From a virus: a stretch of DNA of 22,099 nt. Location of the stretch: positions 1-22,099 of IMG/VR virus record IMGVR_UViG_3300028283_000038; one strand, written 5' to 3'. This document shows positions 999 to 21,249 of this stretch, piece by piece. The position numbers were made by a program, and so were the translations under genes. The notes under the pieces are model-generated. The model was not told the origin of the DNA. It saw only the letters and a program-made list of their open reading frames with translations, and did no database searches. Each line of letters opens with the position of its first letter. Position 1 is the first letter of the stretch.

Positions 999-1238
999 AT
1001 GATGAAATTGGAAGAACTAGAACAGGTAATGCAAGTTTATCTTAAAATAAAGGATGACCAAGCAACCACAACAGAAATAAATGACGCTTATTTCTTGATA
1101 AATAAAGACCCAGCATCTGAAGAAGAAAGAAAACAATATATATATGACTGGATTGGATTAAGATATAATGATGTATATACTGCCACAGTAAAAACACAAT
1201 TTGATATAAATAAAATAATGAAAAGAAGAAAGATTTAA
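999..1238 (+). CDS. Small hypothetical protein (79 aa)
   Basis: Starts one base after the previous stop with two ATG codons in a row (999 and 1002). Its TAA is followed directly by the ATG of the next gene at 1239, so the three genes look like one transcription unit. The product is acidic in the first two thirds (LEELEQVMQVYLKIKDDQ, DPASEEERKQYIYDW) and basic at the end (KIMKRRKI), and is probably helical. I recognise no domain. Its position between a nuclease candidate and a sigma-like regulator suggests an early or middle accessory role, which is inference. Confidence 0.7.
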   Translation: MMKLEELEQVMQVYLKIKDDQATTTEINDAYFLINKDPASEEERKQYIYDWIGLRYNDVYTATVKTQFDINKIMKRRKI

Positions 1239-1895
1239 ATGGTAAATAACTACTGGAGTTCTCAAGATAATAAATTGATAAATGAATTCTATTATTGTTA
1301 TACTGGTATTACATCAGGTAAAACAAGAAATAGAATATTCAAACAATTGCAACCCAAACTGAATTTACTTATTGGTAATGCAATTCAAATAAGAATATCT
1401 TCTTGGAGTGACGAAGATAAAGAAGAAGCCAGACAGGATTGTTTATTACGTATATGGAATGCACTATCTAATAAATTAGATGAAAGAAAAATTCAAGGCG
1501 TTCTTAAATATCTATGGGTAATCACCAACAATATGTTGTTAACCATTGGCAGACGCCACAGTTTAATAACAGTGCCAGATATTATATATGATAGTGAACA
1601 TTTATCAATAGTTACTTTCCCTGAAGTAGAAGAATATAATGAAGATGATATACAGGAATACAGAAAAGCAATCATCAAAGAATTGGATAGAAAGATAATT
1701 GAGCAAGAGAAACTGAATAGAGTTAATACTATTTACTTAACACTACTTCGTGAGTATCTTATAGCAAATGATTATGATGGTAAAGGCTTTCAAGATTATA
1801 TATGTCAAACATTAAACATCAATCGCAAGAACTTCTATCAGATAAATTTTAAATTAAATATACGTTCATCAGTATTTAATAATAAACAAAAATAG
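1239..1895 (+). CDS. Sigma-factor-like late transcription regulator candidate (218 aa)
   Basis: Residues about 32-106 resemble sigma-70 region 2. A hydrophobic helix (LNLLIGNAIQIRI) is followed by the acidic SWSDEDKEEARQDCLLRIWNAL, which matches the usual 'D-EDL-QE-FLRLWKAL' pattern. Then come LKYLWVITNNMLLTIGRR, in the position of 'YLYRIARN...D-RR'. The C-terminus (about 183-208, FQDYICQTLNINRKNFYQ) could be a region-4-like helix-turn-helix. The length of 218 aa fits an ECF-sized factor. The gene lies just before the packaging genes, the place where ArpU/RinA-type late activators with sigma-like folds sit in other phages. I infer that it helps host RNA polymerase read the GCGTATTTAAA sites before the structural genes. 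It ends with TAG, rare in this genome. The alternative is a non-sigma DNA-binding protein. Confidence 0.5.
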   Translation: MVNNYWSSQDNKLINEFYYCYTGITSGKTRNRIFKQLQPKLNLLIGNAIQIRISSWSDEDKEEARQDCLLRIWNALSNKLDERKIQGVLKYLWVITNNMLLTIGRRHSLITVPDIIYDSEHLSIVTFPEVEEYNEDDIQEYRKAIIKELDRKIIEQEKLNRVNTIYLTLLREYLIANDYDGKGFQDYICQTLNINRKNFYQINFKLNIRSSVFNNKQK

Positions 1896-2005
1896 CACAT
1901 AAGCCCGCCACTAGTTGAAGTTTTTGTAACTCATTGGATACCACACCCCCAAGAGACGCTTAAAATATATGGTCAGCAGGTAGTACCCATAAATCAGGAA
2001 CAGAT
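1896..2005 (+). other. Non-coding gap before the packaging genes, possible cos/pac region
   Basis: About 110 bases with no convincing gene, richer in G and C than the surroundings (AGCCCGCCACTAG, CCACACCCCCAAGAG). It carries small symmetric elements such as GGTAGTACC inside ATGG...CCAT. A GTATTTAATAATAAAC sequence at 1872-1887, inside the end of the sigma-like gene, resembles the late promoter motif. Phage packaging sites often lie next to the small terminase gene, so a cos or pac site here is plausible but not shown. Confidence 0.3.
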
Positions 2006-2158
2006 ATGAAGAAGCCAGTAACAATAACACTAAGGATTGAAGAAGTAATAAATGATAATTATATAATACCAAAACATTTATTACAATCAACGATAAATCA
2101 TTTTATTCTGTATAAAATAAATGGTAAGATAGTTAAGAAGAAATATGAAAAAAGTTAA
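2006..2158 (+). CDS. Small hypothetical protein (50 aa)
   Basis: ATG at 2006 to TAA at 2156-2158. The product begins MKKPVTITLRIEEV and ends KKKYEKS. Its last 14 bases overlap the start of the presumed small terminase (2145), an arrangement typical of translationally coupled genes in this phage. No domain is recognised. The alternating hydrophobic start (VTITLRIEEV) suggests a short beta strand followed by a helix. It could be an accessory packaging or DNA-binding peptide. The evidence that it is a gene is the overlap and the clean frame, not homology. Confidence 0.5.
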   Translation: MKKPVTITLRIEEVINDNYIIPKHLLQSTINHFILYKINGKIVKKKYEKS

Positions 2159-2474
2159 TATAAAACTCGCATCAAAAGAACTGGATAGACTCAATGCCAG
2201 TGATTCAAAGAAAACGATTATCCTAAATAATATTGAGTTGTACAACGATTTGATTACAGCATACAAACAAGACAAAGAACAACGCAACCTGTATATCATC
2301 TATCAATTGAATGGTATGATTATAAAACAAATGAATGAACTTGAAAAACTTTCAAAGCAGAATGAAGAACTATCTGATGATACATTTACCGCAATGGTTG
2401 ATGCGATTAAAGATAGAAAAGTAAAACCTGTAAATGGTTTTAACAATAAAGCGAAAGATGTTGAAACAAGGTAA
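2145..2474 (+). CDS. terS: Presumed terminase small subunit (109 aa)
   Basis: The function is inferred from position. The gene lies directly before the large terminase, and the TAA (2472-2474) shares its last base with the ATG of that gene. The product is mostly helical and charged. It starts with a basic segment (MKKVNIKLASKELDRL), has a central helical stretch (LYNDLITAYKQDKEQRNLYIIYQLNGMIIKQMNELEKLSKQ) that looks like a coiled coil, and ends with a basic tail (KDRKVKPVNGFNNKAK). P27-type small terminases of similar length have a helical oligomerisation core of this kind and recognise the packaging site. I cannot see a clear helix-turn-helix, so a packaging accessory protein remains possible. 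Confidence 0.55.
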   Translation: MKKVNIKLASKELDRLNASDSKKTIILNNIELYNDLITAYKQDKEQRNLYIIYQLNGMIIKQMNELEKLSKQNEELSDDTFTAMVDAIKDRKVKPVNGFNNKAKDVETR

Positions 2475-4099
2475 TGACAAATAAAGAAATCGCTGTACAA
2501 TACGCCAATGATATCATCAATGAAATAATTCCAGCTTGTATCTATGTTAAACAATCCTGTAAGCGGTTCTTATCTGATTTAGAAAATCCGCTGTACTATT
2601 ACAATGATGAAGAAGTAAACGCGGTGGTGGCGTTTATCAATTCCTTATATCTGACAGAACAAACAACCAAACAACATTTTCTATTAGAAAACTGGCAAAC
2701 CTTTATTGTTGTTAACATCTATGGATTGTTTAAAGTAAGTACCAACACAAGAAAGATAAAGTATTCATATATCGAATGTTCAAGGAAGCAAGGAAAATCA
2801 CAATTCGTTAATGCTCTTGCCCTGTATCACCTGATTTTTGATACAGATAGTCAGGTTATTATATCCGCCAATTCAAAAGACCAAGCAAAAAATGTTGACT
2901 TTAAGAAGTGTAAACAGTACGCCAGCCAGTTAGACAGGAGCAAGAAACACATCAAACATTATTATAACTCATTAAGGTATAGAGATAGTGAATTAATTGT
3001 GACAGCATCCGACGCCAGTAAATTGGACGGCCTGAACACGAGTTTCGCAATCATTGATGAACTTCATGAAGCACCGAACAACCTGATGTACAATGTAATA
3101 AAGTCATCAATGGGGTCCAGAGAACAACCATTATTTATTGTAATCACCACCGCAGGTTTTGATACAAGTTCATTCTGTTATCAGTTAAGAAGTTATTGTA
3201 CAGATGTACTTAATGGTATTGCTGAAGATGAAAGCCAGTTTGTAATCATATATACATTAGATGAAACTGATGATTACACTAATCAGAATTGCTGGATTAA
3301 AGCTAATCCAAACTTGAATATATCAGTAAGGAAAGATTTTCTTGAAAGTGAAGTTAACAAGGCGGTGAATTTTGAAGCTGAAAGAAATGGTGTATTGGTT
3401 AAGAACTTCAACAAGTGGTTAAAATCTAATAGTGAAGATGACTGGATAAATGAAAAGTATGTGGTGGAAGCGATGGCTGATATATCAATCAATGATGACA
3501 GGTTTAAAGAACTTGATGTATATGTTGGTGTTGACCTATCAAGTATATCTGATATCACCGCCATTACATATATGATACCTGATAATAATATCATATACTT
3601 CTTCAATCAATATTATGTACCTGAAGATAGTATTAATTCCAATGTCAATAAAGATATGTTCAGGAACGCCGCCGCTAATGGTCACTTGAATATTACCAGC
3701 GGTAATGTGGTTGACTATGATAGAATATTAGAAGATATCCTGAAGGTTAATAACAGCCACGCCATTCAATTGGTATCATATGATAAATGGAATAGTACAC
3801 AATTCGCCATTGACGCCACGCAATCAGGATTGAAGTTAATACCATATAGTCAAACAGCAGGTAGTTTAAATAAGCCCATCAAAGAATTTCAGAAGCTTAT
3901 AATGTCAGGTGGTATTGTTTTAGAGAAAAATATATTAACAAAGTGGATGATATCAAATGTGGTTGTTAAACAAAATCACATGGGCAATCTTTCAATTGAT
4001 AAATCAAGTAGAAGTAAGAAGATAGATGGTTTAGCAAGTATTTTGAATTCGTTAGGCTCGTTCCTAGATAGTCCAAGATACTCATATGAAGTTCATTAA
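2474..4099 (+). CDS. terL: Terminase large subunit (ATPase and nuclease of DNA packaging)
   Basis: 541 aa, the normal length for Terminase_1 (HK97/YmfN-like) proteins. The N-terminal ATPase shows a Walker A variant ECSRKQGKS at residues 101-109, Walker B FAIIDELHE at 191-199 (D195, E196), and the coupling motif FIVITTAGFD at 221-230. The C-terminal RNase H-like nuclease has VGVDLSS with D354, SYDKWN with D437 and KKIDGL with D518, the expected three metal-binding acidic residues. The enzyme cuts concatemeric DNA and pumps it through the portal into proheads. The start shares one base with the stop of the gene before it. No truncation is seen. The Lys in Walker A lies in K105-Q-G-K-S, the spacing usual for terminases. 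Confidence 0.95.
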   Translation: MTNKEIAVQYANDIINEIIPACIYVKQSCKRFLSDLENPLYYYNDEEVNAVVAFINSLYLTEQTTKQHFLLENWQTFIVVNIYGLFKVSTNTRKIKYSYIECSRKQGKSQFVNALALYHLIFDTDSQVIISANSKDQAKNVDFKKCKQYASQLDRSKKHIKHYYNSLRYRDSELIVTASDASKLDGLNTSFAIIDELHEAPNNLMYNVIKSSMGSREQPLFIVITTAGFDTSSFCYQLRSYCTDVLNGIAEDESQFVIIYTLDETDDYTNQNCWIKANPNLNISVRKDFLESEVNKAVNFEAERNGVLVKNFNKWLKSNSEDDWINEKYVVEAMADISINDDRFKELDVYVGVDLSSISDITAITYMIPDNNIIYFFNQYYVPEDSINSNVNKDMFRNAAANGHLNITSGNVVDYDRILEDILKVNNSHAIQLVSYDKWNSTQFAIDATQSGLKLIPYSQTAGSLNKPIKEFQKLIMSGGIVLEKNILTKWMISNVVVKQNHMGNLSIDKSSRSKKIDGLASILNSLGSFLDSPRYSYEVH

Positions 4100-4116
4100 A
4101 AATAAATATTTAAGTA

Positions 4117-4148
4117 TTTACACTTTTCATCAATTTCAATATATTTAT
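4117..4148 (+). promoter_or_regulatory. Early-class promoter (TTTACACTTTTC-N11-TATATTTAT)
   Basis: TTTACA at 4117-4122, CTTTTC at 4123-4128, an 11-base spacer, then TATATTTAT at 4140-4148. The same boxes and the same spacer length occur at 21218-21249 (+) and 19147-19178 (-), and without TTTACA at 21073-21098 (-). The last T is 19 nt before the ATG at 4167. Confidence 0.6.
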
Positions 4149-4166
4149 AATAAACACGATAAACAA

Positions 4167-4460
4167 ATGAAAAACTATTTTAAAAGGAATGAATTTCTAT
4201 TATCTGAAGAAGGAATTAGAAAGTTTAATACATCATCACAACTGAAAGTTGAATATAAGGAAGAACAACCATTTGAAGATGATTATAAAGAAGAAATTAT
4301 TATTGTCACTTCTGAAAGAGAAATGTCACATAATGAAATAATGTATTTTACAGGTAAATATAGAAATTGTAGAATAGTAAATAACCTATCAAAAAATTCT
4401 ATTATATCAATGCCATTAAATTATACACTAGACACAATGACTGTGATAAAGGTAATTTAA
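4167..4460 (+). CDS. Small hypothetical protein behind an early-type promoter (97 aa)
   Basis: I choose ATG 4167 although an in-frame ATG at 4086 would give 124 aa overlapping the terminase end by 14 nt. The early-class promoter at 4117-4148 lies inside that extension, and 4167 is 19 nt after its -10 box. The product starts MKNYFKRNEFLLSEEGIRKF and has an acidic middle (KVEYKEEQPFEDDYKEE), a strand-like EIIIVTSERE and a hydrophobic end. No family is recognised. It sits between terminase and portal, where structural operons rarely have an independent early gene. A moron-like or regulatory role, for example acting on the palindromic sites at 4546-4585, is conceivable but unproven. Confidence 0.6.
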   Translation: MKNYFKRNEFLLSEEGIRKFNTSSQLKVEYKEEQPFEDDYKEEIIIVTSEREMSHNEIMYFTGKYRNCRIVNNLSKNSIISMPLNYTLDTMTVIKVI

Positions 4461-4538
4461 AATCCACTGGAGTAATATATAGTATTATTTTACAGATATT
4501 TACTAATTAAGGAAATTTAGTGATAATTAAAAATTATT

Positions 4539-4553
4539 AGCGTATTTAAAAAT
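4539..4553 (+). promoter_or_regulatory. Late-class promoter motif AGCGTATTTAAAAAT before portal
   Basis: A copy of the GCGTATTTAAA motif (core 4540-4550). The distance to the portal ATG (4601) is longer than at most other sites because the tandem palindromes at 4546-4585 lie between. ATACGCT at 4594-4600 forms an inverted repeat with AGCGTAT at 4539-4545. Confidence 0.55.
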
Positions 4554-4585
4554 GTGTGTACATTATTAAAAATGTATATACATTT
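4546..4585 (+). promoter_or_regulatory. Two tandem 20-bp palindromic sites, candidate operator
   Basis: TTAAAAATGTGTGTACATTA (4546-4565) is followed directly by TTAAAAATGTATATACATTT (4566-4585). The second contains the perfect palindrome AAAATGTATATACATTTT (4568-4585). The first differs by two central bases. The 20-bp period is about two helical turns, so two dimers would bind on one face. They overlap and follow the late-type promoter motif, as expected for a repressor or activator site controlling the head genes. Confidence 0.5.
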
Positions 4586-4600
4586 TAAAACATATACGCT

Positions 4601-5878
4601 ATGAACTTTATTCAAAAGATATTCAACAAGCCAGAAACAAGAAGTACAATAGAAGATTTTCAAAATCCAATATTAGGTACACTTTCATTTGGTACTTATG
4701 GTGCATACAATCAAAGCAAAGCTTTAAAACTATCAACAGTATATAGATGTGTAAATCTTATATCAGATAGTATTGCTTCACTTCCATTATATCCATACAT
4801 CTGGAAAGGTGATTGGAAATACATAGATGAAAGTAATACACTATACAACATATTGAATGTTCAACCAAATTCATTTATGGGGTCCTATCTATTCAAGAAA
4901 CAAATCTTGGTTAATATGTTGCTCAAGGGCAACGCATACATTCTGATTGATAGAGCGAATTCTGGAACAGTACTTTCTTTAACATTATTGAATTCTGATT
5001 ATGTTCAGATATATATCAACGGTGCATTGATATCAACAATATCAGATTTTACAGCACTTGGCCCTGATGTAAAAATTACATATTACAATCAGTTAACAGG
5101 TAAAGAATATGATAAATCACAGATAATACACATACCAAATTATGTACGTGATAATGGAATTGAAGGTGTTTCAACCTTAACATACGCCGCTGATACTCTT
5201 GGACTAGCCTCATATACTAATGAACATTCATCAAACTTCTTTAAAAGTGGTTCAAACCTGGCTGGTATTCTTAGACCTGTAGCAGGTGGAACATTATTAA
5301 AAGGTCAGGCGATTAAAGCAAAACAGGACTTTATCAATTCATTATCACCTGCCGTTGGCGGTATCAGCGGTGGAATAGTGGCCCTAGATGCAGGCTTGGA
5401 GTATCAGAGTATCACAGTAAATCCAAAAGATAGTCAAATGATTGAAAACAAGGCGTTCAGCGTTCTTGAAATTTGTAGGTACTTTGGCGTTCCGCCATCA
5501 CTGGCATTCTCTGAAACTGGAAAATATTCAACCGCAGAACAGCAAAGTTTGGACTTTTTGAATAATGGTTTACTACCATTGATTGAGAAGCTCGAGAACG
5601 AGCTATTTCGCAAGCTATATCTTCCAAGTGAATGGCCAACATCAGATTTAAAATTCGCCGTAGATAATTTAATCAGATTGGATGCAGTAACTAAAGCAAG
5701 TGTATTAACACAATTAATAAATGTTGGTGTTAAGACTGTAAATGAAGGCCGTGAAATGTACGATGCTAAATTTCCAGTTGCAGGTGGTAATAAAGCATTC
5801 ATCAGTACAAACCTTCAACCATTGGATAATCCTGTAGTAACAGGGCCAACACCAGTTGATAATAAACTTAAACAATAA
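4601..5878 (+). CDS. Portal protein (HK97 family)
   Basis: 425 aa, typical for Phage_portal proteins of the HK97 type. Recognisable blocks are LSTVYRCVNLISDSIASLPLYPY near residue 45-67, LFKKQILVNMLLKGNAYILI near 97-116, and ICRYFGVPPSLAF followed by YSTAEQQSLDFLNNGLLPLIEKLENEL in the last third. In the folded dodecamer these form the wing, the stem and the clip that contacts terminase. The portal is the unique vertex through which DNA enters and leaves the capsid, and it nucleates head assembly. The gene starts directly after the ATACGCT half of an inverted repeat, with a late promoter motif and palindromes upstream. The C-terminal 35 residues (NPVVTGPTPVDNKLKQ) are Pro/Asn-rich and probably disordered. 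Confidence 0.95.
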   Translation: MNFIQKIFNKPETRSTIEDFQNPILGTLSFGTYGAYNQSKALKLSTVYRCVNLISDSIASLPLYPYIWKGDWKYIDESNTLYNILNVQPNSFMGSYLFKKQILVNMLLKGNAYILIDRANSGTVLSLTLLNSDYVQIYINGALISTISDFTALGPDVKITYYNQLTGKEYDKSQIIHIPNYVRDNGIEGVSTLTYAADTLGLASYTNEHSSNFFKSGSNLAGILRPVAGGTLLKGQAIKAKQDFINSLSPAVGGISGGIVALDAGLEYQSITVNPKDSQMIENKAFSVLEICRYFGVPPSLAFSETGKYSTAEQQSLDFLNNGLLPLIEKLENELFRKLYLPSEWPTSDLKFAVDNLIRLDAVTKASVLTQLINVGVKTVNEGREMYDAKFPVAGGNKAFISTNLQPLDNPVVTGPTPVDNKLKQ

Positions 5879-5887
5879 TAGAATAAT

Positions 5888-6559
5888 ATGGAAAATATAT
5901 TTGAAACAAGAACAGCAACCGAAATAAGAGCGAATACAGAAACAGGTATCATTAGTGGTACTGCCATAGTATTCAACCAAGAAAGTAATTTGCTTGGTGG
6001 ACAATTCCGAGAAATAATAAAACCTGAAGCCGCAACTGAAGAATTTTTAAGAAGTCAGGATATTGTAATGAAGTTCAATCATCAGCCAGATTCTATACTT
6101 GCAAGATATAGAAGTGATGGCCAAAGAAATTCATTATCATTTAATGTTGATGAACGTGGTGTTAACTTCAGTTTCAAAGCAAAAACTAAAGATGCTGGTT
6201 TACTTGAAAGTATAAACGCTGGCGATATCAACGCCGCTTCTTTCGCCTTCAGAGTATCGCCCGAACCAAAAAGTGAAAACTGGGAAAAAAGAAATGATGG
6301 AACATATCTAAGAACAATTTCAAAGTTTGATGTGGTTAAAGATTTTTCATTGGTTATTGACCCAGCATATTCAGCAACATCTATATCAATGCGTGGACTT
6401 GATGAACTTAAAGCCAAAGAAGAAGCTGATAAGTTGATTAAAGAAGAAGAAGAAAGAAAAGCACAAGAACAACTTAAAAGAAATGAAGAAGAACAAAAAA
6501 ATAGATTGGCTGATTATTACAAAAAATATGAAGATAAAATCAATCAATTAAAAAAATAA
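5888..6559 (+). CDS. Prohead maturation protease (HK97 S78/U35 family)
   Basis: 223 aa. The protease domain covers about residues 1-170. VMKFNHQPDSILAR holds the catalytic His65, and GDINAASFAFRV holds the catalytic Ser118. FSLVIDPAYSATSISMRG ends the fold, as in the HK97 gp4 family. After that comes a long, highly charged helical tail (about 171-223, rich in KEEEERK and KRNEEEQKN) that looks like a coiled coil and may serve as an internal scaffold, since no separate scaffold gene is present. The enzyme cuts the N-terminal delta domain from the capsid protein inside the prohead and then degrades itself. It lies 9 nt after portal and before the capsid gene, the standard HK97 order. Confidence 0.93.
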   Translation: MENIFETRTATEIRANTETGIISGTAIVFNQESNLLGGQFREIIKPEAATEEFLRSQDIVMKFNHQPDSILARYRSDGQRNSLSFNVDERGVNFSFKAKTKDAGLLESINAGDINAASFAFRVSPEPKSENWEKRNDGTYLRTISKFDVVKDFSLVIDPAYSATSISMRGLDELKAKEEADKLIKEEEERKAQEQLKRNEEEQKNRLADYYKKYEDKINQLKK

Positions 6560-6568
6560 AAATAAACA

Positions 6569-6580
6569 GCGTATTTAAAT
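6569..6580 (+). promoter_or_regulatory. Late-class promoter motif GCGTATTTAAAT before major capsid gene
   Basis: Core match to the repeated motif. TATTTA begins 20 nt before the capsid ATG at 6592. It gives the capsid gene its own transcript, which the terminator at 7811-7843 would end. Confidence 0.6.
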
Positions 6581-6591
6581 AAAAATATTCA

Positions 6592-7788
6592 ATGGATTTA
6601 AATCAACTTATTGAACAGCGTAAAGTTAAACTTTCAGAAATTGAAGGAATACTTAGTAAAGCGAAACTTGAAAGCCGTGAAATGTTTACAAGTGAAAATG
6701 AAAAATTCAACACTATTAATGTAGAAATTGAAAACATTGATAAACAGATTATAGGAAAACAAAAAGTAGTAATAACAAATAATAAAATAAATATAAAAGA
6801 AAATAGAACAATGGAAAAAAATAAATTTAGTTTGCTTTCAAGTATAAGAGATTATGTTGAAGGTCGCGGAACTTCTGAAGCAACACTTGAAATGTTGGAA
6901 GCAGGTAAACAAGATATGGTGAAAGCTGGGCTCTCAAGCCGTGGTCAAATTATATTACCTTTTGAAAACAGAGCAATTGTAAACGCTACAACCGCTGGAC
7001 AAGGTGAATACGCAATCGCAGAACAGAAACTTGATATGATTGGTGCTTTACGTGGTAATCTTGTGGCCGTTAAAGCAGGTGCAACTTTGTTATCAGGATT
7101 AAAAGGAACTGTGTCAATTCCTGTATACGCTGGGACATCCTCAGCATGGAAGGGTGAAAACGTTACCGCAGTTGATGGTGCTGGTGCTTTCACTGAAGTT
7201 ACTTTGGCCCCAAAGCGAATTACAACTATTCTCGATATATCTAAAATGTTCTTGAATCAAGATACAACTGGTGCTGAATCATTGTTAATGTCAGATTTAA
7301 CATCAAGTATTCTTTCAACATTGGAAAGCGCAATTTTCAGTACATTCACAGGTGACACAGCACAGCCAGCAGGTATATTAAATGGTATGTCAAATACATT
7401 TTCAGGAAAAACATCATTTGCTGGAATCGTATCTTTAGAATCTGCTGTTGATACATCAAACGCATTAACTGGAAATCTTGCTTATATTACTACACCTTCA
7501 TTACGTGGTGTTGGAAAAACAACTGCAAAAGCATCTAATGGTGGTACATTCGTTGTCGAAGGAAATACCGCAAATGGGTATCCGATTTATAGTACTTCAC
7601 ATATGGCTGATGGAAAAGCAATCTTTGCTAACTGGGCTGATTTGATTATTGGTAACTGGGGTTCTATTGACATCACTGTTGACCCTTATACACAGGCTCA
7701 TCTTGGAGTTGTAAGATTAGTAGTTAATACTTATTTCAACTTCGCAAAAAGACGTGATGTTTCTTTTGCACTCGCAACCGCTTACTAA
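6592..7788 (+). CDS. Major capsid protein (HK97 fold)
   Basis: 398 aa. Residues 1-70 form a charged coiled-coil delta domain (MDLNQLIEQRKVKLSEIEGIL ... IENIDKQIIGKQK), which acts as scaffold and is removed by the protease. The Phage_capsid domain follows, with LPFENRAIVNATTAGQGEYAIAEQKL, the SIPVYAGTSSAWKGENVTA segment typical of HK97-type proteins, LTSSILSTLESAIFSTFTGDTAQPAGIL, and a C-terminal IGNWGSIDITVDPYTQAHLGVVRLVVNTYFNFAKRRDVSFA. An in-frame ATG near codon 73 (MEKNKFSLLSSIRDYVEG) lies close to the probable delta-domain cleavage point; I regard it as internal, not as the start. The gene is flanked by its own promoter motif and an intrinsic terminator, consistent with very high expression. 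Confidence 0.96.
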   Translation: MDLNQLIEQRKVKLSEIEGILSKAKLESREMFTSENEKFNTINVEIENIDKQIIGKQKVVITNNKINIKENRTMEKNKFSLLSSIRDYVEGRGTSEATLEMLEAGKQDMVKAGLSSRGQIILPFENRAIVNATTAGQGEYAIAEQKLDMIGALRGNLVAVKAGATLLSGLKGTVSIPVYAGTSSAWKGENVTAVDGAGAFTEVTLAPKRITTILDISKMFLNQDTTGAESLLMSDLTSSILSTLESAIFSTFTGDTAQPAGILNGMSNTFSGKTSFAGIVSLESAVDTSNALTGNLAYITTPSLRGVGKTTAKASNGGTFVVEGNTANGYPIYSTSHMADGKAIFANWADLIIGNWGSIDITVDPYTQAHLGVVRLVVNTYFNFAKRRDVSFALATAY

Positions 7789-7810
7789 TCTTAACTGATA
7801 AATAATATTG

Positions 7811-7843
7811 AACCATCGAGAATTAAATCTTGGTGGTTTTTTT
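7811..7843 (+). terminator. Intrinsic terminator after major capsid gene
   Basis: AACCATCGAG (7811-7820), loop AATTAAAT, CTTGGTGGTT (7829-7838) and then a T run to 7843. The stem is 10 bp with two G-U pairs. It lies 23 nt after the capsid stop and just before a new promoter motif. Confidence 0.8.
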
Positions 7844-7855
7844 ATTTCAAATAAG

Positions 7856-7867
7856 GCGTATTTAAAA
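7856..7867 (+). promoter_or_regulatory. Late-class promoter motif GCGTATTTAAAA before connector genes
   Basis: Located 13 nt after the capsid terminator. TATTTA begins 19 nt before the ATG at 7878. It would restart transcription for the head-tail connector cluster. Confidence 0.6.
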
Positions 7868-7877
7868 GAAAGCAAAT

Positions 7878-8183
7878 ATGAATACTATATTGGATTTAAA
7901 GCGACAACTGAACATTGAAAGTACATATACAGATGAAGACACTTCATTACAATTATATCTTGATGTTGCTGAAGCATCTGTATTATCAGAATTGAATTTA
8001 TATACAGGTACTACATCAGGATATACAGGAACATATCAACCTGTAATGTTGAAACAAGCGGTATTGTTATTCGCTGCACATCTGTACACAACCAGACAAA
8101 TAGTTTCATTTGGTCAGGCTTACAAAATTCCATACACATATCAATATTTAATAAACCCTTATAAAGATTATACTATTGCATAA
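7878..8183 (+). CDS. Head-tail connector (HK97 gp6-like adaptor)
   Basis: 101 aa. MNTILDLKRQLNIESTYTDEDTSLQLYLDVAEASVLSEL followed by a helix with MLKQAVLLFAAHLYTTRQ is the helical pattern of the gp6-like head-tail connector family (DLKxxLrI...tDeD..l..yl..A). The final segment, QAYKIPYTYQYLINPYKDY, matches the usual end of these proteins. The protein forms a ring under the portal and joins head to tail. It is the first gene after the capsid terminator. Its TAA (8181-8183) overlaps the next ATG by one base. Confidence 0.85.
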   Translation: MNTILDLKRQLNIESTYTDEDTSLQLYLDVAEASVLSELNLYTGTTSGYTGTYQPVMLKQAVLLFAAHLYTTRQIVSFGQAYKIPYTYQYLINPYKDYTIA

Positions 8184-8500
8184 TGATTTGGGGTAATTTG
8201 AGATATAATATCATAGTAAAAAGTTTATCATCAACCAGAGATACAAACAATGGTTCTGCTGTTGATGTGTATGTACCTAAGTACAATTTGAAGGCTGGTA
8301 TAAAATCAAGTACAGGTTCAAGAGTTATAAACAACAGCGAAATTTTCAACACTAACACAATCACTTTTACAACTCATTACAGGAGTGTAATTGATACCGA
8401 TAGAATAGAATTCAATGGTTATGATTATAAGATAATGATGGTTGGTGAAATTGGCTGGCGTGAAGGTCTGGAAATAATTTGTGAAAAGATAAACGAGTAA
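8183..8500 (+). CDS. Head closure / head-tail joining protein
   Basis: 105 aa. MIWGNLRYNIIVKSLSSTRDTNNG, then WREGLEIICEKINE at the end with RSVIDTDRIEFNGYDYKIMMVGEIGWREG before it. This matches the Phage_H_T_join / SPP1 gp16-like pattern, in which a small beta barrel carries '...I...DRI.ywG..Y.I..v...g.re.lei.a'. Such proteins plug the connector after packaging and dock the tail. Start and stop are coupled to the neighbours (1-nt overlap upstream, 7-nt gap downstream). The family call rests on order in the cluster and this sequence pattern. Confidence 0.75.
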   Translation: MIWGNLRYNIIVKSLSSTRDTNNGSAVDVYVPKYNLKAGIKSSTGSRVINNSEIFNTNTITFTTHYRSVIDTDRIEFNGYDYKIMMVGEIGWREGLEIICEKINE

Positions 8501-8507
8501 TCGAGTA

Positions 8508-8987
8508 ATGGAAACTGATTCAAAAATAAGATTAATCAATGATAAGGAACTGATGGCGTTGTTTGATGAACTTATTCCAAGTGTTCAAAATAAGATAATT
8601 GTTAATGGTTTAAAATCTGCGGCTAGTATAATAACCAAACAAGCCAAACAGAATTTCAAAGGAACAAAGAAGAACAAAAGTAAAACAGGGTACAAAGATT
8701 TAAATAGTAGTTTCAAAATTAAACCAATGAACAAAGAACTTGGTGTAATTGCAGGTATGCAACACCGCGAAGGTTATAAATACAGATTCTTGAACTATGG
8801 TACTGAACAAAGAAGTTATAAAACAAAGAAGGGTAAACAACATGATATAGGTAAAATTGTTGGTAGTAATTTCTTCACTGATGCGGTGAATAGTAAGAAA
8901 GAAGAAGCAAACAAGAATATCCAAGATGAAATTGTAAAATCAATGAATAAGACGGTGAATAAGTGGAACAAGAAATATAAGATGTAA
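8508..8987 (+). CDS. HK97 gp10-like tail component / neck protein
   Basis: 159 aa. The order in the cluster (connector, closure, gp10-like, tail terminator) and the sequence both fit the HK97-gp10 family. An N-terminal helical region (LMALFDELIPSVQNKIIVNGLKSAASIITKQAKQNF) is followed by a central GVIAGMQHREGYKYRFLNYGTEQRSYK, where 'FLNYGT' corresponds to the family's 'fleyGT' motif. A final amphipathic helix contains FFTDAVNSKKEEANKNIQDEIVKSMNK. The protein is very basic. It is thought to act at the neck during tail attachment. Its stop overlaps the HNH gene start by one base. Confidence 0.8.
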   Translation: METDSKIRLINDKELMALFDELIPSVQNKIIVNGLKSAASIITKQAKQNFKGTKKNKSKTGYKDLNSSFKIKPMNKELGVIAGMQHREGYKYRFLNYGTEQRSYKTKKGKQHDIGKIVGSNFFTDAVNSKKEEANKNIQDEIVKSMNKTVNKWNKKYKM

Positions 8988-9319
8988 TGTGCCCGACTAT
9001 CCAACTAAGATTTTCAGATAAGAAAAAAATAATAACACCAAAGATAAATAACCTGAATCATTCAGCGGTTTACAACACAACTACATGGCGAGAATTACGA
9101 TTATATTATTTATCAAAAAATCCATTGTGTGAAATTTGTAAAGAGAATGATAAAATAACACTGTCTCAAGAGGTACATCATAAGATTCAGATTAGTACAG
9201 GAAAAACAAAAGAAGAAAAGCAAGAAATCGGATTCGATATAAACAACTTACAGGCATTATGTACAGAATGTCATAAAAAGATAGATAAAATTAGAACATA
9301 TGGCAATACAACTAAATAA
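8987..9319 (+). CDS. HNH endonuclease
   Basis: 110 aa. The motif order is W34RELRLYYLSKNPLCEIC with zinc ligands C48 and C51, then QEVHHKI with the catalytic His pair H64-H65, then N87 in INNLQ, then LCTECH with C92, C95 and H96. This is a complete HNH nuclease core with its structural zinc site. Phage HNH proteins of this size often assist terminase in cutting packaged DNA, or are free-standing homing enzymes. Most packaging HNH genes sit beside terminase; this one lies inside the connector cluster. It overlaps the gene before by one base and the tail terminator gene by 20 bases. The tight overlap suggests an integrated part of the operon, not a recent insertion. Confidence 0.9.
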   Translation: MCPTIQLRFSDKKKIITPKINNLNHSAVYNTTTWRELRLYYLSKNPLCEICKENDKITLSQEVHHKIQISTGKTKEEKQEIGFDINNLQALCTECHKKIDKIRTYGNTTK

Positions 9320-9680
9320 CGCAGTATATACGCTTTTAGCATCATATACAGGACTTACAGCCATAGTTGGTACAAATGTATTTCCGATAATCGCACCGAA
9401 TGAAACACCATTACCATTCATTGTAATTGAAAGGGATTTTACAACCAACTATACAAAAGATTATGTAAGTATGAATGATAGTAATGTTGAAATAACAATA
9501 CTTAGTACTAATTATAATCAGGGTGTACAAATATCAGCACTTGTTGATAATATATTAAATAATTATAAAGGTTCAACCAGTGGAATCAACATTAGAGATT
9601 GCCGTTTAATTAATTGTACAGAAACATATCAAGATGATGCGTTCATTCAAAAATTGATTTACGCCGTGAAAAACAATTAA
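9300..9680 (+). CDS. Tail terminator / tail completion protein (DUF3168-like)
   Basis: 126 aa. MAIQLNNAVYTLLASYTGLTAIVGTNVFPIIAPNETPLPFIVIERD is the classic beginning of gp17-like tail completion proteins (l..l..l..lt..vg.rvyp..ap...plPyvv). TTNYTKDYVSMNDSNVEITILSTNYNQGVQISALVDNIL and a final YQDDAFIQKLIYAVK complete the pattern. The protein caps the tail tube at its head-proximal end and fixes its length with the tape measure. It begins inside the HNH gene (20-nt overlap) and ends before a late promoter motif. Confidence 0.85.
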   Translation: MAIQLNNAVYTLLASYTGLTAIVGTNVFPIIAPNETPLPFIVIERDFTTNYTKDYVSMNDSNVEITILSTNYNQGVQISALVDNILNNYKGSTSGINIRDCRLINCTETYQDDAFIQKLIYAVKNN

Positions 9681-9687
9681 TAAAGAA

Positions 9688-9700
9688 GCGTATTTAAATG
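9688..9700 (+). promoter_or_regulatory. Late-class promoter motif GCGTATTTAAATG before major tail gene
   Basis: A full GCGTATTTAAA match, with a longer A/T-rich leader (44 nt from TATTTA to the ATG at 9735). It is paired with the terminator at 10241-10269. Confidence 0.6.
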
Positions 9701-9734
9701 AAATAATAATAACAGAAATAAATAATATAACAAC

Positions 9735-10205
9735 ATGGGTGCAAATTCAAATCAAATCGTATATGGTGGTGAAATAATGATTTTCCTTAATCCTACTGGA
9801 ACAACTTCAAATGGTTCATATCCAGCCGCATTTAGTACATCAGCAAAATTAACGGTTAATCTTGGTACAAGGGAAATAAGTTCAAAGGATAGTGGCGATT
9901 GGAAAGAATTCGCAGGAGCAAAATTTGAATGGGATGCAAATTCTGAACACTTAATGAGTTTAGCAGGTTTAACTGGAAATACGCTTTCAACTAAACAGGT
10001 GTATACAGCATTTTTAACAAAAACACCTATATTTTTAGCAATGGCAAGTACAACTGGAACTTCACCATCTTGGACAATGGCCAGTTCAAAAATTAATCTT
10101 AGTGGTGCGGCGTTGATAACATCAATGGATTTAAACGCGTCAGATAATGATAATGCAACATACAGTATCAGTTTAAAAGGTTCTGGAACACTTTCAATAT
10201 CTTAA
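9735..10205 (+). CDS. Major tail tube protein
   Basis: 156 aa, a TP901-1-like tail tube subunit. Features are an N-terminal GEIMIFLNPTGTTSNGSYPAAFSTSAKLTVNLGTREISSKDSGDWKEFAGAKFEWDANSEHLMSL, where the 'STSAKL...TREISSKDSGDW' block is typical of the family. The C-terminus, INLSGAALITSMDLNASDNDNATYSISLKGSGTLSIS, matches the usual 'a..tsl..sa..ge.atys.sf.g.G.L'. Subunits stack as hexameric rings around the tape measure. The gene is a monocistronic unit with its own promoter motif and a strong terminator, as expected for one of the two most abundant virion proteins. Confidence 0.92.
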   Translation: MGANSNQIVYGGEIMIFLNPTGTTSNGSYPAAFSTSAKLTVNLGTREISSKDSGDWKEFAGAKFEWDANSEHLMSLAGLTGNTLSTKQVYTAFLTKTPIFLAMASTTGTSPSWTMASSKINLSGAALITSMDLNASDNDNATYSISLKGSGTLSIS

Positions 10206-10240
10206 AGAATTTCTTCTTTTGTTTATCAGGTTTTAGTTTT

Positions 10241-10269
10241 GGGTGTGAATTGTTCACACCCTTTTTTTT
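10241..10269 (+). terminator. Intrinsic terminator after major tail gene
   Basis: GGGTGTGAA (10241-10249), loop TTG, TTCACACCC (10253-10261), then eight T to 10269. A perfect 9-bp stem. Confidence 0.92.
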
Positions 10270-10286
10270 AACTTCTATTTTATATA

Positions 10287-10304
10287 TCGTATTTAGAATA
10301 AACT
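10287..10304 (+). promoter_or_regulatory. Late-class promoter motif variant TCGTATTTAGAATAAACT
   Basis: It follows the major tail terminator, and TATTTA begins 21 nt before the ATG at 10311. Its ATTTAGAATAAACTAT (10291-10306) also occurs at 19797-19812, in the gap before the leftward 183-aa gene's end. Confidence 0.5.
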
Positions 10305-10310
10305 ATTATA

Positions 10311-10625
10311 ATGATAAAAGAAACAACAATTACAATTGGCGATAAAGAATATCTAATTAAAAAATCTTATCGCTCACTATTAGAATTTGAAGAACAAACT
10401 GGAAAAGCAATAACTAGCATGCAAGAGACGCTGAAAGATTTACTGATGTTTTTCTATTGTATAGTAATATCCAACAACAAAACACAATTTAATTTTTATG
10501 AGTTTGTAAATCTTATTGATGAAAATCAAGAAGTGATGGAAAAATTCAATAAATATTTAGTTGATAGTGCAACAACAAATGAAGATTTACCAGTAAAAAA
10601 AAAGAAGGTAAACCAGTCAAAATAA
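10311..10625 (+). CDS. Tail assembly chaperone, short form (gpG-like)
   Basis: 104 aa. ITIGDKEYLIKKSYRSLLEFEEQTGKAI is the usual start of tail assembly chaperones (beta strands, then r.l..feeltGk), followed by DLLMFFYCIVISNNKTQFNFYEFVNLIDENQEVMEKFNKYL. It lies between major tail and tape measure genes, the fixed position of lambda G/GT-type proteins that coat the tape measure during tail assembly. The end of the frame carries nine A residues (10595-10603). A -1 slip there continues into the downstream frame, giving the longer GT-type product. Without the slip the protein ends KKKKVNQSK at TAA 10623-10625. Confidence 0.85.
   Translation: MIKETTITIGDKEYLIKKSYRSLLEFEEQTGKAITSMQETLKDLLMFFYCIVISNNKTQFNFYEFVNLIDENQEVMEKFNKYLVDSATTNEDLPVKKKKVNQSK
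10595..10604 (+). other. Slippery A9-G sequence for -1 ribosomal frameshift
   Basis: GTAAAAAAAAAGAAGG. In frame 0 this reads GTA AAA AAA AAG. A -1 slip on A AAA AAA gives AAA GAA GGT AAA CCA and enters an open frame with no stop until 10946-10948. TGTTGG and CCAACA about 40 nt downstream could form a weak hairpin. Confidence 0.75.
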
Positions 10626-10948
10626 TAGATATATATAAACAGGTTGTTGGCAGGGGTAAGATATCACCAACATATTTTCTTGATGAAATGTCATTACCTG
10701 AAGTTGAAGCAATACTTAAATCAGTATTTGAAGAATATAAAGATAATTGGGAACAAACAAGGTTTATAACTTTTGTTAATGCGGCTTCATCAGGTGCAAA
10801 AGTGAAATCACCAACCGACATAATGAAATTCAGTTGGGAAACTTCAGAGGAAGAAACACAAGAACCAACCGAACAACAGCGATTACAATCTCAATACGAT
10901 TTAATTAATGCGTTTAATTCGCCTGATAAACAGGTGTTCAAACCCTAA
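10604..10948 (+). CDS. Tail assembly chaperone, frameshift extension (T part of gpGT-like)
   Basis: This frame is open from the slippery site to TAA 10946-10948. It begins EGKPVKIIDIYKQVVGRGKISPTYFLDEMSLPEVEAILKSVFEEYKDNWEQTRFITFVNAASS. The pattern 'DEMSLPEVEAIL...W..TRFIT' is typical of the T domain of lambda-like GT proteins, which binds tail tube subunits. An internal ATG at 10688 has no clear ribosome site, and using it would drop the conserved beginning, so I prefer translation by frameshift from 10311. The fusion would be 212 aa. The end is Gln/Glu-rich and probably disordered. Confidence 0.8.
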   Translation, partial: EGKPVKIIDIYKQVVGRGKISPTYFLDEMSLPEVEAILKSVFEEYKDNWEQTRFITFVNAASSGAKVKSPTDIMKFSWETSEEETQEPTEQQRLQSQYDLINAFNSPDKQVFKP

Positions 10949-10968
10949 TTTATTAATACTAATTCAAA

Positions 10969-10981
10969 GCGTATTTAAAAT
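10969..10981 (+). promoter_or_regulatory. Late-class promoter motif GCGTATTTAAAAT before tape measure
   Basis: A full match to GCGTATTTAAA. TATTTA begins 21 nt before the ATG at 10993. Confidence 0.6.
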
Positions 10982-10992
10982 AAAATATTAAC

Positions 10993-12642
10993 ATGGCTAA
11001 ATTTGACCTTCTCACAACGCTTTCATTAAATGCCGCAGGCTTCACACAAGGTATTGACCGAGCGAAAAAAAGTACGCAGGGTTTTCAATCAATGTTAAAA
11101 GGAATTGGTGGAATGGCCGCTGGGTTTTTAACTGTTGGGGCAGCTGTAGAATTCGCAAAGAAAGCAATTGATGCTTCACAAGGTTCAGCCGATAAGTTTG
11201 AAAGAATAATGGGCGGTGTGAATACCACAACTGACAGATTTTTTAACATGATATCAACTGGAGATTTTTCAAACCTTATTGATAATCTAACTAAAGCGGC
11301 AGAAGCAGGAACGGATTACGCCGATGCAATAGATGAAATCAATGAAAGAAAATTAGGTTTAGATTTAGAAGCATCAGTTGTATCGCCATATCAAAAAGAA
11401 CTTGAAGCAACATTCAGAGATAAAGAAAATGACCCAGAAAAAAGACAAGAAGCATTAAATGTATTCAGAAACATTGGAAATGATATTGCAACCAAGGGTA
11501 TTTCTATTGCTAATGCGGCTGTTATTGCACAAGAAAATTTATTAAAAGGTAAAGGTGTGGAAGCGTCAAAATTGAAAGAACTTTTTATGTCTTACAATAC
11601 CAATATTACAACAATTCAAAGTGCTAATGAAAAAACTGCTAAACTAAATGAACTATGGATATTAAGAGAAAGGCTTTTAAAAAATACTAATAGTGTTACA
11701 TATACTGAAGACCTTAAAAGGAATAGGAAAGCATTAGATGATTTTTACGCATCAATGACTGAAGATGAAAAGTATTTTGCTGATTTAATAAGAACAAATG
11801 ATAAGACTAAAGAAACTGATTTAACTAAATATCTAGAAGTTTTAAAACTTCAGGGTAAAGCAGAAGAAGACCTTGCATCAGTTAAAGTTGAAACACTTAA
11901 AATTGGTAACCAAATAACAAAAGCAGTTGAAGAAGAACTTGCCGCAGAACTTGCCGCAACAGAAAAAATAAGTATTTTAAAAGGTCTTAAAAAAACAGAC
12001 ATTAAACAACCTTTTGTAAATGGTGGAAATACTGGACAATTTACGCTTGATGGTTCAACTGTAAAAACAAATGTATCCAATGAATTGGTTAAAATGAATA
12101 CAGATAAAACAATGTCGCAAATAATATATAATAACTCACTTCAAGATGCAATTGTTAAAAATGAAGAACTAGCCGCTGTAGAAGAACGAAAAAATAAAAT
12201 TCTTTTAGATGGTGTATATGCACTTGGTGGAGGTGCTAGTTCGATAAAAGAATATGGTAAACAGGTAATGAATACAATCAGGAGTGTAATTAGTGCATTA
12301 TTGGCTGAAACTATCGCAACAGCAATCGCAAAATCAATGAGGTTCGCAAAAAATCCTTTTATTGGTTTGGCGTTGGGTGCTATTACAGGTGGTTTGGCTG
12401 CTTCTCTATTCAATACAATTGTTCCAGCGTTCGCCAATGGTGGTATATCTTCTGGGGGTATGGCGTTGGTAGGTGAACGAGGCCCAGAATTGGTTAATCT
12501 TCCAAGCGGTTCACAAGTGTTTTCAAATAGTCAATCATCGAGAATGTTTGGTGGCGGTGGTGAAGTGCTGATAAAATTTCAGAATGGTTCATTGGAAGCG
12601 TACATGGATTACAATAATAGAAAATCAAATTCATTTAGATAA
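10993..12642 (+). CDS. Tape measure protein
   Basis: 549 aa. The N-terminus, LLTTLSLNAAGFTQGIDRAKKSTQGFQSMLKGIGGMAAGFLTVGAAVEFAKKAIDAS, is the classic tape measure start, with a hydrophobic Gly/Ala helix at about 36-55. A long helical coiled-coil middle follows (KAEEDLASVKVETLKIGNQITKAVEEELAAELAATEK). A hydrophobic segment, NPFIGLALGAITGGLAASLF, comes near residue 455, then FANGGISSGGMALVGERGPELVNLPSGSQVFSN, the 'GGi...g...vGE.GPE.v.lP.Gs.V' signature of phage tape measures. It sets tail length and leaves the tail during DNA ejection. At about 0.15 nm per residue the tail should be near 80 nm, which is short for a siphovirus. Its stop overlaps the next start by one base. Confidence 0.93.
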   Translation: MAKFDLLTTLSLNAAGFTQGIDRAKKSTQGFQSMLKGIGGMAAGFLTVGAAVEFAKKAIDASQGSADKFERIMGGVNTTTDRFFNMISTGDFSNLIDNLTKAAEAGTDYADAIDEINERKLGLDLEASVVSPYQKELEATFRDKENDPEKRQEALNVFRNIGNDIATKGISIANAAVIAQENLLKGKGVEASKLKELFMSYNTNITTIQSANEKTAKLNELWILRERLLKNTNSVTYTEDLKRNRKALDDFYASMTEDEKYFADLIRTNDKTKETDLTKYLEVLKLQGKAEEDLASVKVETLKIGNQITKAVEEELAAELAATEKISILKGLKKTDIKQPFVNGGNTGQFTLDGSTVKTNVSNELVKMNTDKTMSQIIYNNSLQDAIVKNEELAAVEERKNKILLDGVYALGGGASSIKEYGKQVMNTIRSVISALLAETIATAIAKSMRFAKNPFIGLALGAITGGLAASLFNTIVPAFANGGISSGGMALVGERGPELVNLPSGSQVFSNSQSSRMFGGGGEVLIKFQNGSLEAYMDYNNRKSNSFR

Positions 12643-14612: not shown

Positions 14613-14614
14613 TT

Positions 14615-16369: not shown

Positions 16370-16370
16370 A

Positions 16371-17408
16371 ATGGCATTACCACAAACAGATATAACAACC
16401 GCCGCAGTTGGAACATATATAGGATTAGCGTCTGGAAATGTTTCCACATTATGTGCAAAAACAGGATTGAACAAATATAGCTTTTATGCACCAGGTCAGC
16501 TTTCAGTTGACGCAAACAAAGATGTTGTATTAACACCGCCAAGCGGCGGTTATAAACTTGGTGATTTTCGTCTATATGATAAACTTGCATTAACACCTTC
16601 CGCACAAGCAAACTATCAGCAGAACTGGGGACCAGCCTTAACAAATTATACTTTTGCGGTTTCTTGGTTTCCTCAGAATATGAACATAAAAGATTTTAGT
16701 ATTTCTGGCGATTATGTCACAATGAATTTTTACTCTACAGCAACAGATAGAACAAATGAAGCTAACAGAAGATTTCAACAAATTAATTCAATTTCATATT
16801 CAGCGATAACGCCATTGGTTGGACATTCAAGAACAACTTCTTACAATGCAGGAAGCACACAAGCACCTGTTTATATAAATAATTTTCCTGTTAGTGGTTT
16901 AACAACACCTGACCAAATATTGTATTTGGAAACTTTCATTTCTGATATTGCAGGGAATAGAAAAATAAATCTTGGAGTAAGAGCAAACAATTATACAACC
17001 GTAACAATGCATCAAAGCCAAACGCCTTATATGGTTAGAAGTGGAAATATTACACCAGTTCCTACTGGTTATACTGCCTCTTGGATAGAAATTACACCAG
17101 CGTCAACACTTTGCGATACAGCAACTAACTTAAATCAAACTTTTGGTGGTACAACATATTCTTTCTATGCAAGAATAAGGGGTGTATATAGTGCAGCAAA
17201 TAGAATAATGCAACAATCCACTTGTTCAGTTACTTTAACTTTGCGTGGTGATGCTCAAGTTGTAAAATCTACCGTGCTTAATTATTCAGGTAGTGCAACA
17301 CTAATTTCTGGTACATTATCAAATGGTAAAACATGGGCGTATGATGATGTTGCAACAATAACCTGTTCAGCAACATTTCCAACAACGCCACTTTATACTA
17401 CTTGCTAG
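16371..17408 (+). CDS. Putative tail fibre / receptor-binding protein (345 aa)
   Basis: It follows the S74 fibre by 1 nt and precedes the lysis genes. The N-terminus, MALPQTDITTAAVGTYIGLASGNVSTLCAKTGLNKYSFYAPGQLSVDANKDVVLTPPSGGYKLGDFRLYD, is of the kind found in fibre proteins of Bacteroidota phages. A short polar start is followed by a block with 'YSFYAP' and 'W'-containing strands (LTNYTFAVSWFPQN). The remainder is beta-rich with many Thr, Ser and Asn and ends TTPLYTTC, with a Cys as last residue. I see no catalytic motif and no chaperone domain. Function is inferred from position and composition. An alternative is a virion decoration protein. It ends with TAG. Confidence 0.6.
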   Translation: MALPQTDITTAAVGTYIGLASGNVSTLCAKTGLNKYSFYAPGQLSVDANKDVVLTPPSGGYKLGDFRLYDKLALTPSAQANYQQNWGPALTNYTFAVSWFPQNMNIKDFSISGDYVTMNFYSTATDRTNEANRRFQQINSISYSAITPLVGHSRTTSYNAGSTQAPVYINNFPVSGLTTPDQILYLETFISDIAGNRKINLGVRANNYTTVTMHQSQTPYMVRSGNITPVPTGYTASWIEITPASTLCDTATNLNQTFGGTTYSFYARIRGVYSAANRIMQQSTCSVTLTLRGDAQVVKSTVLNYSGSATLISGTLSNGKTWAYDDVATITCSATFPTTPLYTTC

Positions 17409-17426
17409 GAATTTTTTCTATTATCG

Positions 17427-17443
17427 TTGTATTTATAATAAAA
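17427..17443 (+). promoter_or_regulatory. Late-class promoter motif variant TTGTATTTATAATAAAA before lysis genes
   Basis: TATTTATAATAAA begins 22 nt before the ATG at 17452. It lacks the GCG but keeps the core and the distance. It would drive the peptidase, holin and 130-aa gene up to the terminator at 18661. Confidence 0.5.
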
Positions 17444-17451
17444 TAGATTAT

Positions 17452-18024: not shown

Positions 18025-18242
18025 TGATGAACTTCTTAAAAGAACTGGTGACAGATGGGTCTGGAGTATCATCAAAGAGGTTCATATCTCTTGCAGGAAT
18101 GATTATCTTCTTGGGTGTTATTATTGCTTCAATGTTGGGTAAAGTATTCCCAGATATCATTATTTTAAGCCTGGTAACCATAATACTGGGTAATGGAGCA
18201 ATGACGCTCTTTCCAGTGAAAAAAACAGATAATAATAGTTAA
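18024..18242 (+). CDS. Holin-like two-helix membrane protein (72 aa)
   Basis: The N-terminal MMNFLKELVTDGSGVSSKRF is followed by two hydrophobic segments, about 20-40 (FISLAGMIIFLGVIIASMLG) and 45-63 (IIILSLVTIILGNGAMTLF), with a short polar linker and a charged C-terminus (VKKTDNNS). The 'SGVSSKRFISLAG' entry to the first helix is common in small membrane proteins of Bacteroidota phages annotated as holins. Size, topology and its place directly after the M23 peptidase (start overlapping the stop) support a holin role. Two ATG codons in a row (18024 and 18027) make the exact start ambiguous by one residue. Confidence 0.75.
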   Translation: MMNFLKELVTDGSGVSSKRFISLAGMIIFLGVIIASMLGKVFPDIIILSLVTIILGNGAMTLFPVKKTDNNS

Positions 18243-19146: not shown

Positions 19147-19178
19147 ATAAATATATCGAAAGTTTGGAAAAGTGTAAA
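19147..19178 (-). promoter_or_regulatory. Early-class promoter (TTTACACTTTTC-N11-TATATTTAT), leftward
   Basis: On the minus strand TTTACA is 19178-19173, CTTTTC is 19172-19167, and TATATTTAT is 19155-19147. Spacing is identical to the sites at 4117 and 21218. It drives the 102-aa gene. Confidence 0.65.
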
Positions 19179-19181
19179 TAG

Positions 19182-21098: not shown

Positions 21099-21217
21099 AT
21101 TTTTCAAAGAGAAATAAAATGTGTTAAAGTTTTATGATTGTTGTTAAAATAATAACTGTTGTTTTTTCGGGGACTGGTTGAAGTGATTGTTATATCTTAA
21201 AATATTTTTATTAACTA

Positions 21218-21249
21218 TTTACACTTTTCGCGTTTGGGGTTATATTTAT
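21218..21249 (+). promoter_or_regulatory. Early-class promoter (TTTACACTTTTC-N11-TATATTTAT), rightward
   Basis: TTTACA 21218-21223, CTTTTC 21224-21229, TATATTTAT 21241-21249. It drives the initiator-like gene at 21351 through a structured leader of about 95 nt. Between this and the leftward promoter (21099-21217) I see no gene or repeat. Confidence 0.65.

Follow-up and report, generated by a model that had tools for sequence, protein, structure and literature searches.

A putative sigma factor and a matching one-block late promoter motif in small phages of Bacteroidota

The small Bacteroidota virus analyzed here seems to carry its own sigma factor, along with a matching one-block signal set before virion and lysis genes. 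It is quite probable that a phage-encoded, ECF-type sigma factor of 218 aa, made early, directs the host core RNA polymerase to single-block late promoters; that the protein reads these sites we infer from sequence. The window, i.e. the whole stretch of DNA analyzed, corresponds to an IMG/VR virus record of 22,099 bases, and encodes terminase, portal, S78 protease and capsid proteins, a set of HK97-type head and packaging genes (features in Table 1). Both contig ends lie inside a single gene (21351-22099 plus 1-331) containing internal tandem repeats (EKEK and GPDKAPDSRELFNF units), the frame from 21351 ending with EKEK...FQ and the frame at base 2 beginning with EKEK...SQP. The record is therefore probably nearly complete and circularly permuted.

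Relatives L006, L083, L084 and L024 were found with protein, motif pattern and terminase searches. The terminase query retrieved 23 additional relatives, and later L126, a prophage in a Bacteroidales MAG; L134 was added last. The phage genes of L126 are bordered on one side by SpoU methylase, transaldolase, mechanosensitive channel and ClpS genes, which identifies Bacteroidota as hosts of the phage group.

Table 1. Positions and strands of the features of the window discussed in the text
Feature	Position	Strand	Remarks
Putative divergent sigma-70/ECF-type factor, 218 aa	1239..1895	+	region 2 ~8-111, low-confidence linker ~111-134, region-4-like helices ~135-213
Terminase large subunit	2474..4099	+	query for gathering relatives
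Candidate early promoter, second copy	4114..4148	+	upstream of small gene between terminase and portal
Late-promoter-like GCGTATTTA	4540..4548	+	before portal; without AAA tail; palindromes on flanks; weakest copy
Candidate late promoter GCGTATTTAAATAAAA	6569..6584	+	before major capsid protein; same site in L006, L083, L084, L024, L088, L092
Terminator-like hairpin	7810..7839	+	just 5' of 7856 motif
Candidate late promoter	7856..7871	+	behind terminator, before head-tail connector gene; same site in relatives
Candidate late promoter	9688..9703	+	before tail tube-like gene 9735-10205; same site in relatives
Terminator-like hairpin	10241..10261	+	just 5' of 10287 motif
Candidate late promoter	10287..10302	+	preceded by T, not G; behind terminator, before gene 10311-10625; same site in relatives
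Candidate late promoter	10969..10984	+	before tape-measure-like gene 10993-12642; same site in L024 and L126
Candidate variant late promoter TTGTATTTATAATAAAAT	17427..17444	+	before M23 peptidase (lysis) gene 17452-18024, Pfam M23; 13.0 bits
Candidate early promoter, third copy	19147..19181	-	TATTTACACTTTTC...TATATTTAT repeat
Candidate early promoter TATTTACACTTTTC...TATATTTAT	21215..21249	+	resembles host TTTG / TAnnTTTG; upstream of 21351 gene, which appears to run across contig ends toward sigma gene

The initial annotation had listed seven motif sites in the window (4540, 6569, 7856, 9688, 10287, 10969 and a T-variant at 17427). All seven are present, as six + strand copies of CGTATTTA and a TGTATTTA variant at 17427, and reside, as claimed, directly 5' of portal, capsid, connector, tail and lysis genes. 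The exact 11-mer GCGTATTTAAA occurs five times on the + strand and never on the - strand, and its reversed-pattern control was not found. The bare octamer is not enriched in the window when one mismatch is allowed (27 copies vs. 28.5 expected); the signal is therefore carried by position and by the extended motif, and plain octamer counting was dropped as a test. All six exact + strand octamers fall in gaps between genes, and these gaps account for some 4% of bases 1000-18660 (0.041^6 = 5e-9). The - strand copies at 965 and 13112 are intragenic and have low matrix scores. The scoring matrix was trained on relatives only, the window being never included. Its top five positions in the window are 6570, 9689, 10970, 7857 and 10288, and 17428 ranks eighth at 13.0 bits, a score reached or exceeded by a mean of 0.18 positions in shuffled windows. 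The two intervening matches (14140 on the + strand, 4158 on the - strand) are not closely followed by a gene start, and probably arose by chance. A motif-like AGTATTTAATAATAAA at 1871, at the 3' end of the sigma gene, was not called a promoter because the sequence may simply encode the conserved residues SVFNNK.

Further traits reported earlier for the sites were confirmed, with two refinements. Two motifs stand right behind terminators, the hairpins 7810-7839 and 10241-10261 being located directly 5' of 7856 and 10287. A conserved -35 box is absent from 34 near and 42 distant sites, in which only weak A/T-rich positions are seen about 12-19 nt upstream. The AATAAA-like tail holds in the form of a near-invariant AAA at +12 to +14 (C = 0), and fails at 4540, where the tail is missing. 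The 4540 copy scores only 6.3 with the matrix, and the region before the portal gene (4538-4602) features palindromes ATGTGTGTACAT and ATGTATATACAT within an outer inverted repeat GCGTAT/ATACGC. These palindromes, not seen at the portal promoters of L006, L083, L084 and L024, are possibly repressor sites over an altered portal promoter. Given the lack of the AAA tail, the low score and the palindromes, the portal gene may be controlled differently in the window phage.

A motif scan of the relatives, one of the checks proposed at the outset, showed that the motif is kept at the same sites, more than 15 related phages having GTATTTA followed by AAA at a fixed distance. Among 34 near sites in seven phages, picked by CGTATTTA, AAA is found at +12..+14 in 32-33, a feature independent of the picking rule. 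The 42 sites of distant phages, aligned separately, again gave GTATTTA and then AAA at +12 to +14. Gaps holding GTATTTA number 3-8 per record vs. 0.04-0.4 expected, these sites being partly orthologous in the relatives and their counts not independent events. CGTATTTA is located before both portal and capsid genes in L006, L083, L084, L024, L088 and L092, and, where the contig reaches, also before the connector, tail tube and next genes; TGTATTTA, AGTATTTA or GGTATTTA are found at equivalent places in more distant relatives. Most late-region terminators have the motif 4-50 nt downstream. One site, L006:10665, was left out of the count because the start codon is too near for the AAA spacing. 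A collection-wide search for CGTATTTAWAATAAAAT yielded 75 stretches; beyond L024 and the record of L006, large unrelated phages with one copy each made up nearly all of them, and these were not counted as evidence. In L017, L031, L044, L052 and other phage contigs, a conserved 289-aa gene has a single CGTATTTATAATAAAAT exactly 25 nt upstream, the result of either chance or a separate late-promoter use.

Sigma gene and motif are found together in ten phages, namely the window, L006, L083, L084, L095, L099, L100, L101, L103 and L126; in L103 the gene is broken into two frames near the 3' end. With the exception of L096, all motif-bearing relatives having enough sequence 5' of the terminase carry the sigma gene; the contigs of L024, L088, L092, L093, L094, L097, L098, L102 and L134 start too near the terminase for the gene to be judged. 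The sigma fragment of L091 is identical to that of L126, and was not counted as independent. Neither the sigma gene nor the repeated motif was found in the outgroups L085, L106 and L107. In L104 and L105 the corresponding sites are occupied by GTCTATATAATAAA, two substitutions away from GTATTTATAATAAA, with an unchanged AAA spacing. No close sigma homologue was found in these two relatives; the record of L104 contains a 121-aa ORF (L119:3654-4016) with a weak, collinear region-2-like match (11.9 bits). The main counter-evidence to the pairing is L096 (L118, record G006), in which the motif is kept and the gene was not detected, an outcome that the initial annotation had listed among those refuting its idea: this 21.5-kb sequence, apparently almost complete by gene content, has AAGTATTTAT at nine sites and no detectable sigma gene. 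A host ECF factor, a sigma too divergent to be seen, or an assembly gap may account for it. CGTATTTA, TGTATTTA, AGTATTTA and GTCTATATA reside at the same sites in phages with increasingly divergent sigmas. It is conceivable, albeit rather doubtful, that sigma and promoter changed together, and that at least one phage (L096) lost its sigma gene and now relies on a matching ECF sigma supplied by the host or by a co-resident phage.

Candidate promoters of a different kind are also present in the window. The three TATTTACACTTTTC...TATATTTAT sites feature TTTA, 19 nt, and then TATATTTA, and look like early promoters read by the host. Bacteroidota promoters have an upstream TTTG element. The host consensus is TAnnTTTG in Bacteroidota, and a CGT box occupies the -10 position in Flavobacterium ECF promoters (PMC9723704). 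The late block differs from TATATTTA in the first two bases, CG instead of TA, a change which could keep the host sigma off the late block.

Of the alternatives, the one which survives best is a genuine promoter function of the motif with a host sigma, either primary or ECF, as its reader, the phage protein serving other sites or modulating the host. L096 speaks for it, as does the presence in Bacteroidota hosts of several ECF factors with CGT -10 boxes (PMC9723704). Yet the late motif does not fit the host TAnnTTTG -7 box, no other repeated motif that the phage sigma might read was found, sites resembling host-read early promoters exist separately as TATATTTAT copies with a TTTA element 19 nt upstream, and gene and motif occur jointly in ten phages and are both missing in the outgroups. 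On balance, a host sigma as the reader is unlikely.

Judged by profile matches and modelled structure, the 218-aa protein is a divergent sigma-70/ECF factor. The sigma region 2 proposed from the sequence stands, with ECF profile matches, a confident region 2 model and sigma-led structure matches, T4 gp55 included. The assignment is made on the family: the window protein taken alone is near the detection limit, with no sigma match in Pfam, E 0.024 in NCBIfam and no family match of use. In NCBIfam, Sig70_bacteroi1 is matched by four of nine members (best E 1.4e-4) and sigma70-ECF by three of nine (best E 2.5e-4), and two members match PHROG 1740, annotated as RNA polymerase sigma factor (best 8e-6). 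The family profile matched a host ECF factor, itself carrying Pfam region 2 and region 4, at about 30 bits, and searched against the PDB it found ECF chains among the matches, in the expected register. The Pfam gathering score was not reached, one member only matching Sigma70_r2 (E 0.019), and the family is therefore described as divergent and ECF-like. Searches of nearly 400 genomes at the phylum level and nearly 400 at the order level revealed no other phage copy, and genome scans with a close sigma alignment found nothing.

Two structural models were built, one from four sequences (pLDDT 61), the other from nine (pLDDT 76, mostly about 85-93 at residues 8-111). In the PDB, the leading Foldseek rows for both models are sigma factors or transcription-initiation chains, and annotated phage sigma factors were matched in the viral library, the E-values being weak (0.0095 at best for the viral library, and 0.03-0.1 for the PDB). 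The comparison with solved structures matched region 2, sigma factors heading the list. The top VIA-align match is T4 gp55 in a promoter complex (7d7c_F; Z 11.0, 127 residues, rmsd 7.3), followed by SigB, AlgU and sigma-E (Z 9.9-10.5, rmsd 2.2-2.6, about 90 residues). The 29 chains found at Z >= 8 are to be read with caution, middling Z being common for helical proteins, and weight is therefore put on the agreement of sequence and structure rather than on Z alone. The model covers the whole of region 2, the core-binding and -10-recognition part, residues 8-111 matching ECF region 2. A region-4-like C-terminal domain is likely present according to the model, which has C-terminal helices at about 135-205; SigW and CnrH alignments span residues 7-209 at rmsd of about 7, and no Pfam region 4 match was obtained.

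The same data bear on the notion of a protein that has a sigma-like fold but helps the host polymerase at the motif as a late activator, similar to ArpU/RinA or to the co-activator gp33. In its favor, the similarity to region 2 is remote, and the gene directly precedes the packaging genes, like those of such activators. The likeness to ArpU and RinA suggested initially found no sequence support, no model of either kind being matched at E up to 10 (NCBIfam, Pfam, PHROGs); moreover, a full region 2 was modelled, with Z of about 9-11 to sigma factors, and a single block of the -10 type fits a sigma. An activator of this sort is quite improbable.

The distance of the motif from the genes had been reported as 19-22 nt from TATTTA to the ATG at five sites, and this is correct for the starts 6592, 7878, 10311, 10993 and 17452; it is 44 nt for 9735 and 58 nt for 4601. 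A translation signal (an upstream ribosome-binding or S1-binding element) in place of a promoter might be envisaged from this placement in 5/7 cases, and from the reliance of Bacteroidota translation on signals other than Shine-Dalgarno (PMC9723704), but it is hardly tenable, since the motif stands after terminators and is absent before internal genes of the same operons, and the motif-to-ATG distance varies over 17-60 nt while that from motif to AAA is fixed, which counts against a ribosome-binding role.

With a phage sigma as the preferred reader of the motif, the following course of events may be drawn. A host-sigma early promoter would give an early transcript from which the phage sigma is made; the candidate promoter at 21215 would read into the contig-end gene and, through it, in the direction of the sigma gene. 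The phage sigma would bind the host core RNA polymerase, and the sigma-loaded enzyme would move to late promoters made up by (G)CGTATTTA and AAA at +12 to +14, which would serve portal, capsid, connector, tail and lysis genes, in many cases directly behind the terminator of the preceding unit. In such a promoter, CGTA(TTTA) would act as the -10 element and transcription would start at AAA, leaving most genes with a 5' leader of some 5-15 nt. Core binding, motif recognition, start site and early/late timing are all predictions from the DNA and its encoded products. In the L126 prophage, a GTATTTATAATAAA site (L126:8026) is located upstream of the gene preceding the sigma gene, an arrangement which suggests positive feedback on the latter.

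The system would, by analogy, work like known phage late sigmas. T4 gp55, which has the highest Z among the solved-structure matches, acts at TATAAATA promoters together with gp33 and the gp45 clamp. Single-block late promoter logic is in common; the T4 late promoter TATAAATA differs from the element of the window group, and gp55 has no counterpart of the C-terminal domain of the 218-aa protein beyond model residue 153. The closest known system is that of phiEco32, a 77-kb E. coli podovirus, in contrast to the roughly 22-kb HK97-type Bacteroidota phage of the window. Its gp36 is a phage ECF-type sigma of similar size (214 aa), associated with one conserved element, tAATGTAtA, found before middle and late genes, transcripts starting 6-8 bp downstream (PMC8948821). 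In both phages a single conserved element precedes late genes and the sigma is encoded by the same genome; the element of the window is different (GTATTTA...AAA). The conserved AAA at +12..+14 would fit the 6-8 bp start spacing of phiEco32. By sequence, the phage sigma family is separate from gp36: hhalign of the nine-sequence profile with gp36 gave a weak match (25 columns, probability 3%), the best stretch being the same region 2 helix. The missing -35 element of phiEco32 has been explained by the absence of region 4 homology (PMC8948821), whereas in the 218-aa protein a region-4-like domain seems to be present. Phage 7-11 gp47 is a late sigma reading late promoters with the host core polymerase, like the role proposed here, and its relatives include a Winogradskyella (Bacteroidota) sigma-24; its consensus is bipartite, GTAAtg-(16)-aCTA (PMC8948821), while the window group shows a weak upstream A/T bias only. 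Bacteroidota ECF factors (NCBIfam TIGR02985, Sig70_bacteroi1) are matched by the family, and the family profile matched host ECF genes; the late motif resembles the CGT box at -10 of Flavobacterium SM6 ECF promoters (PMC9723704). Unlike Bacteroidota ECF factors, the present proteins are phage-borne and far more divergent, and no anti-sigma partner was identified.

The initial annotation knew of no description of the switch for this phage group. Likewise, no account of such a late sigma/promoter system in small Bacteroidota siphoviruses was found in the open-access literature, where little on the late transcription of small Bacteroidota phages was found at all. The principle is not new, late sigmas with single-element promoters being already described in phiEco32 (PMC8948821). 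The pairing is compact and testable: it takes a gene of some 650 nt plus a short promoter that recurs within genomes of about 20-24 kb, and it is conserved across sigma proteins only about 25% identical. Annotation of such phages would gain a marker for late genes, and Bacteroidota genetics a candidate orthogonal sigma/promoter pair; the joint change of sigma and promoter specificity could be followed along a natural series.

Two minor features were noted. The window encodes a long, tail-fibre-like protein with GTSGSSG repeats (14615-16369), the C-terminal part of which has DERLKTNI. In L088, L091 and L095, a C-run and a G-run able to pair are located just 5' of the small terminase gene, forming a possible attenuator or packaging signal.
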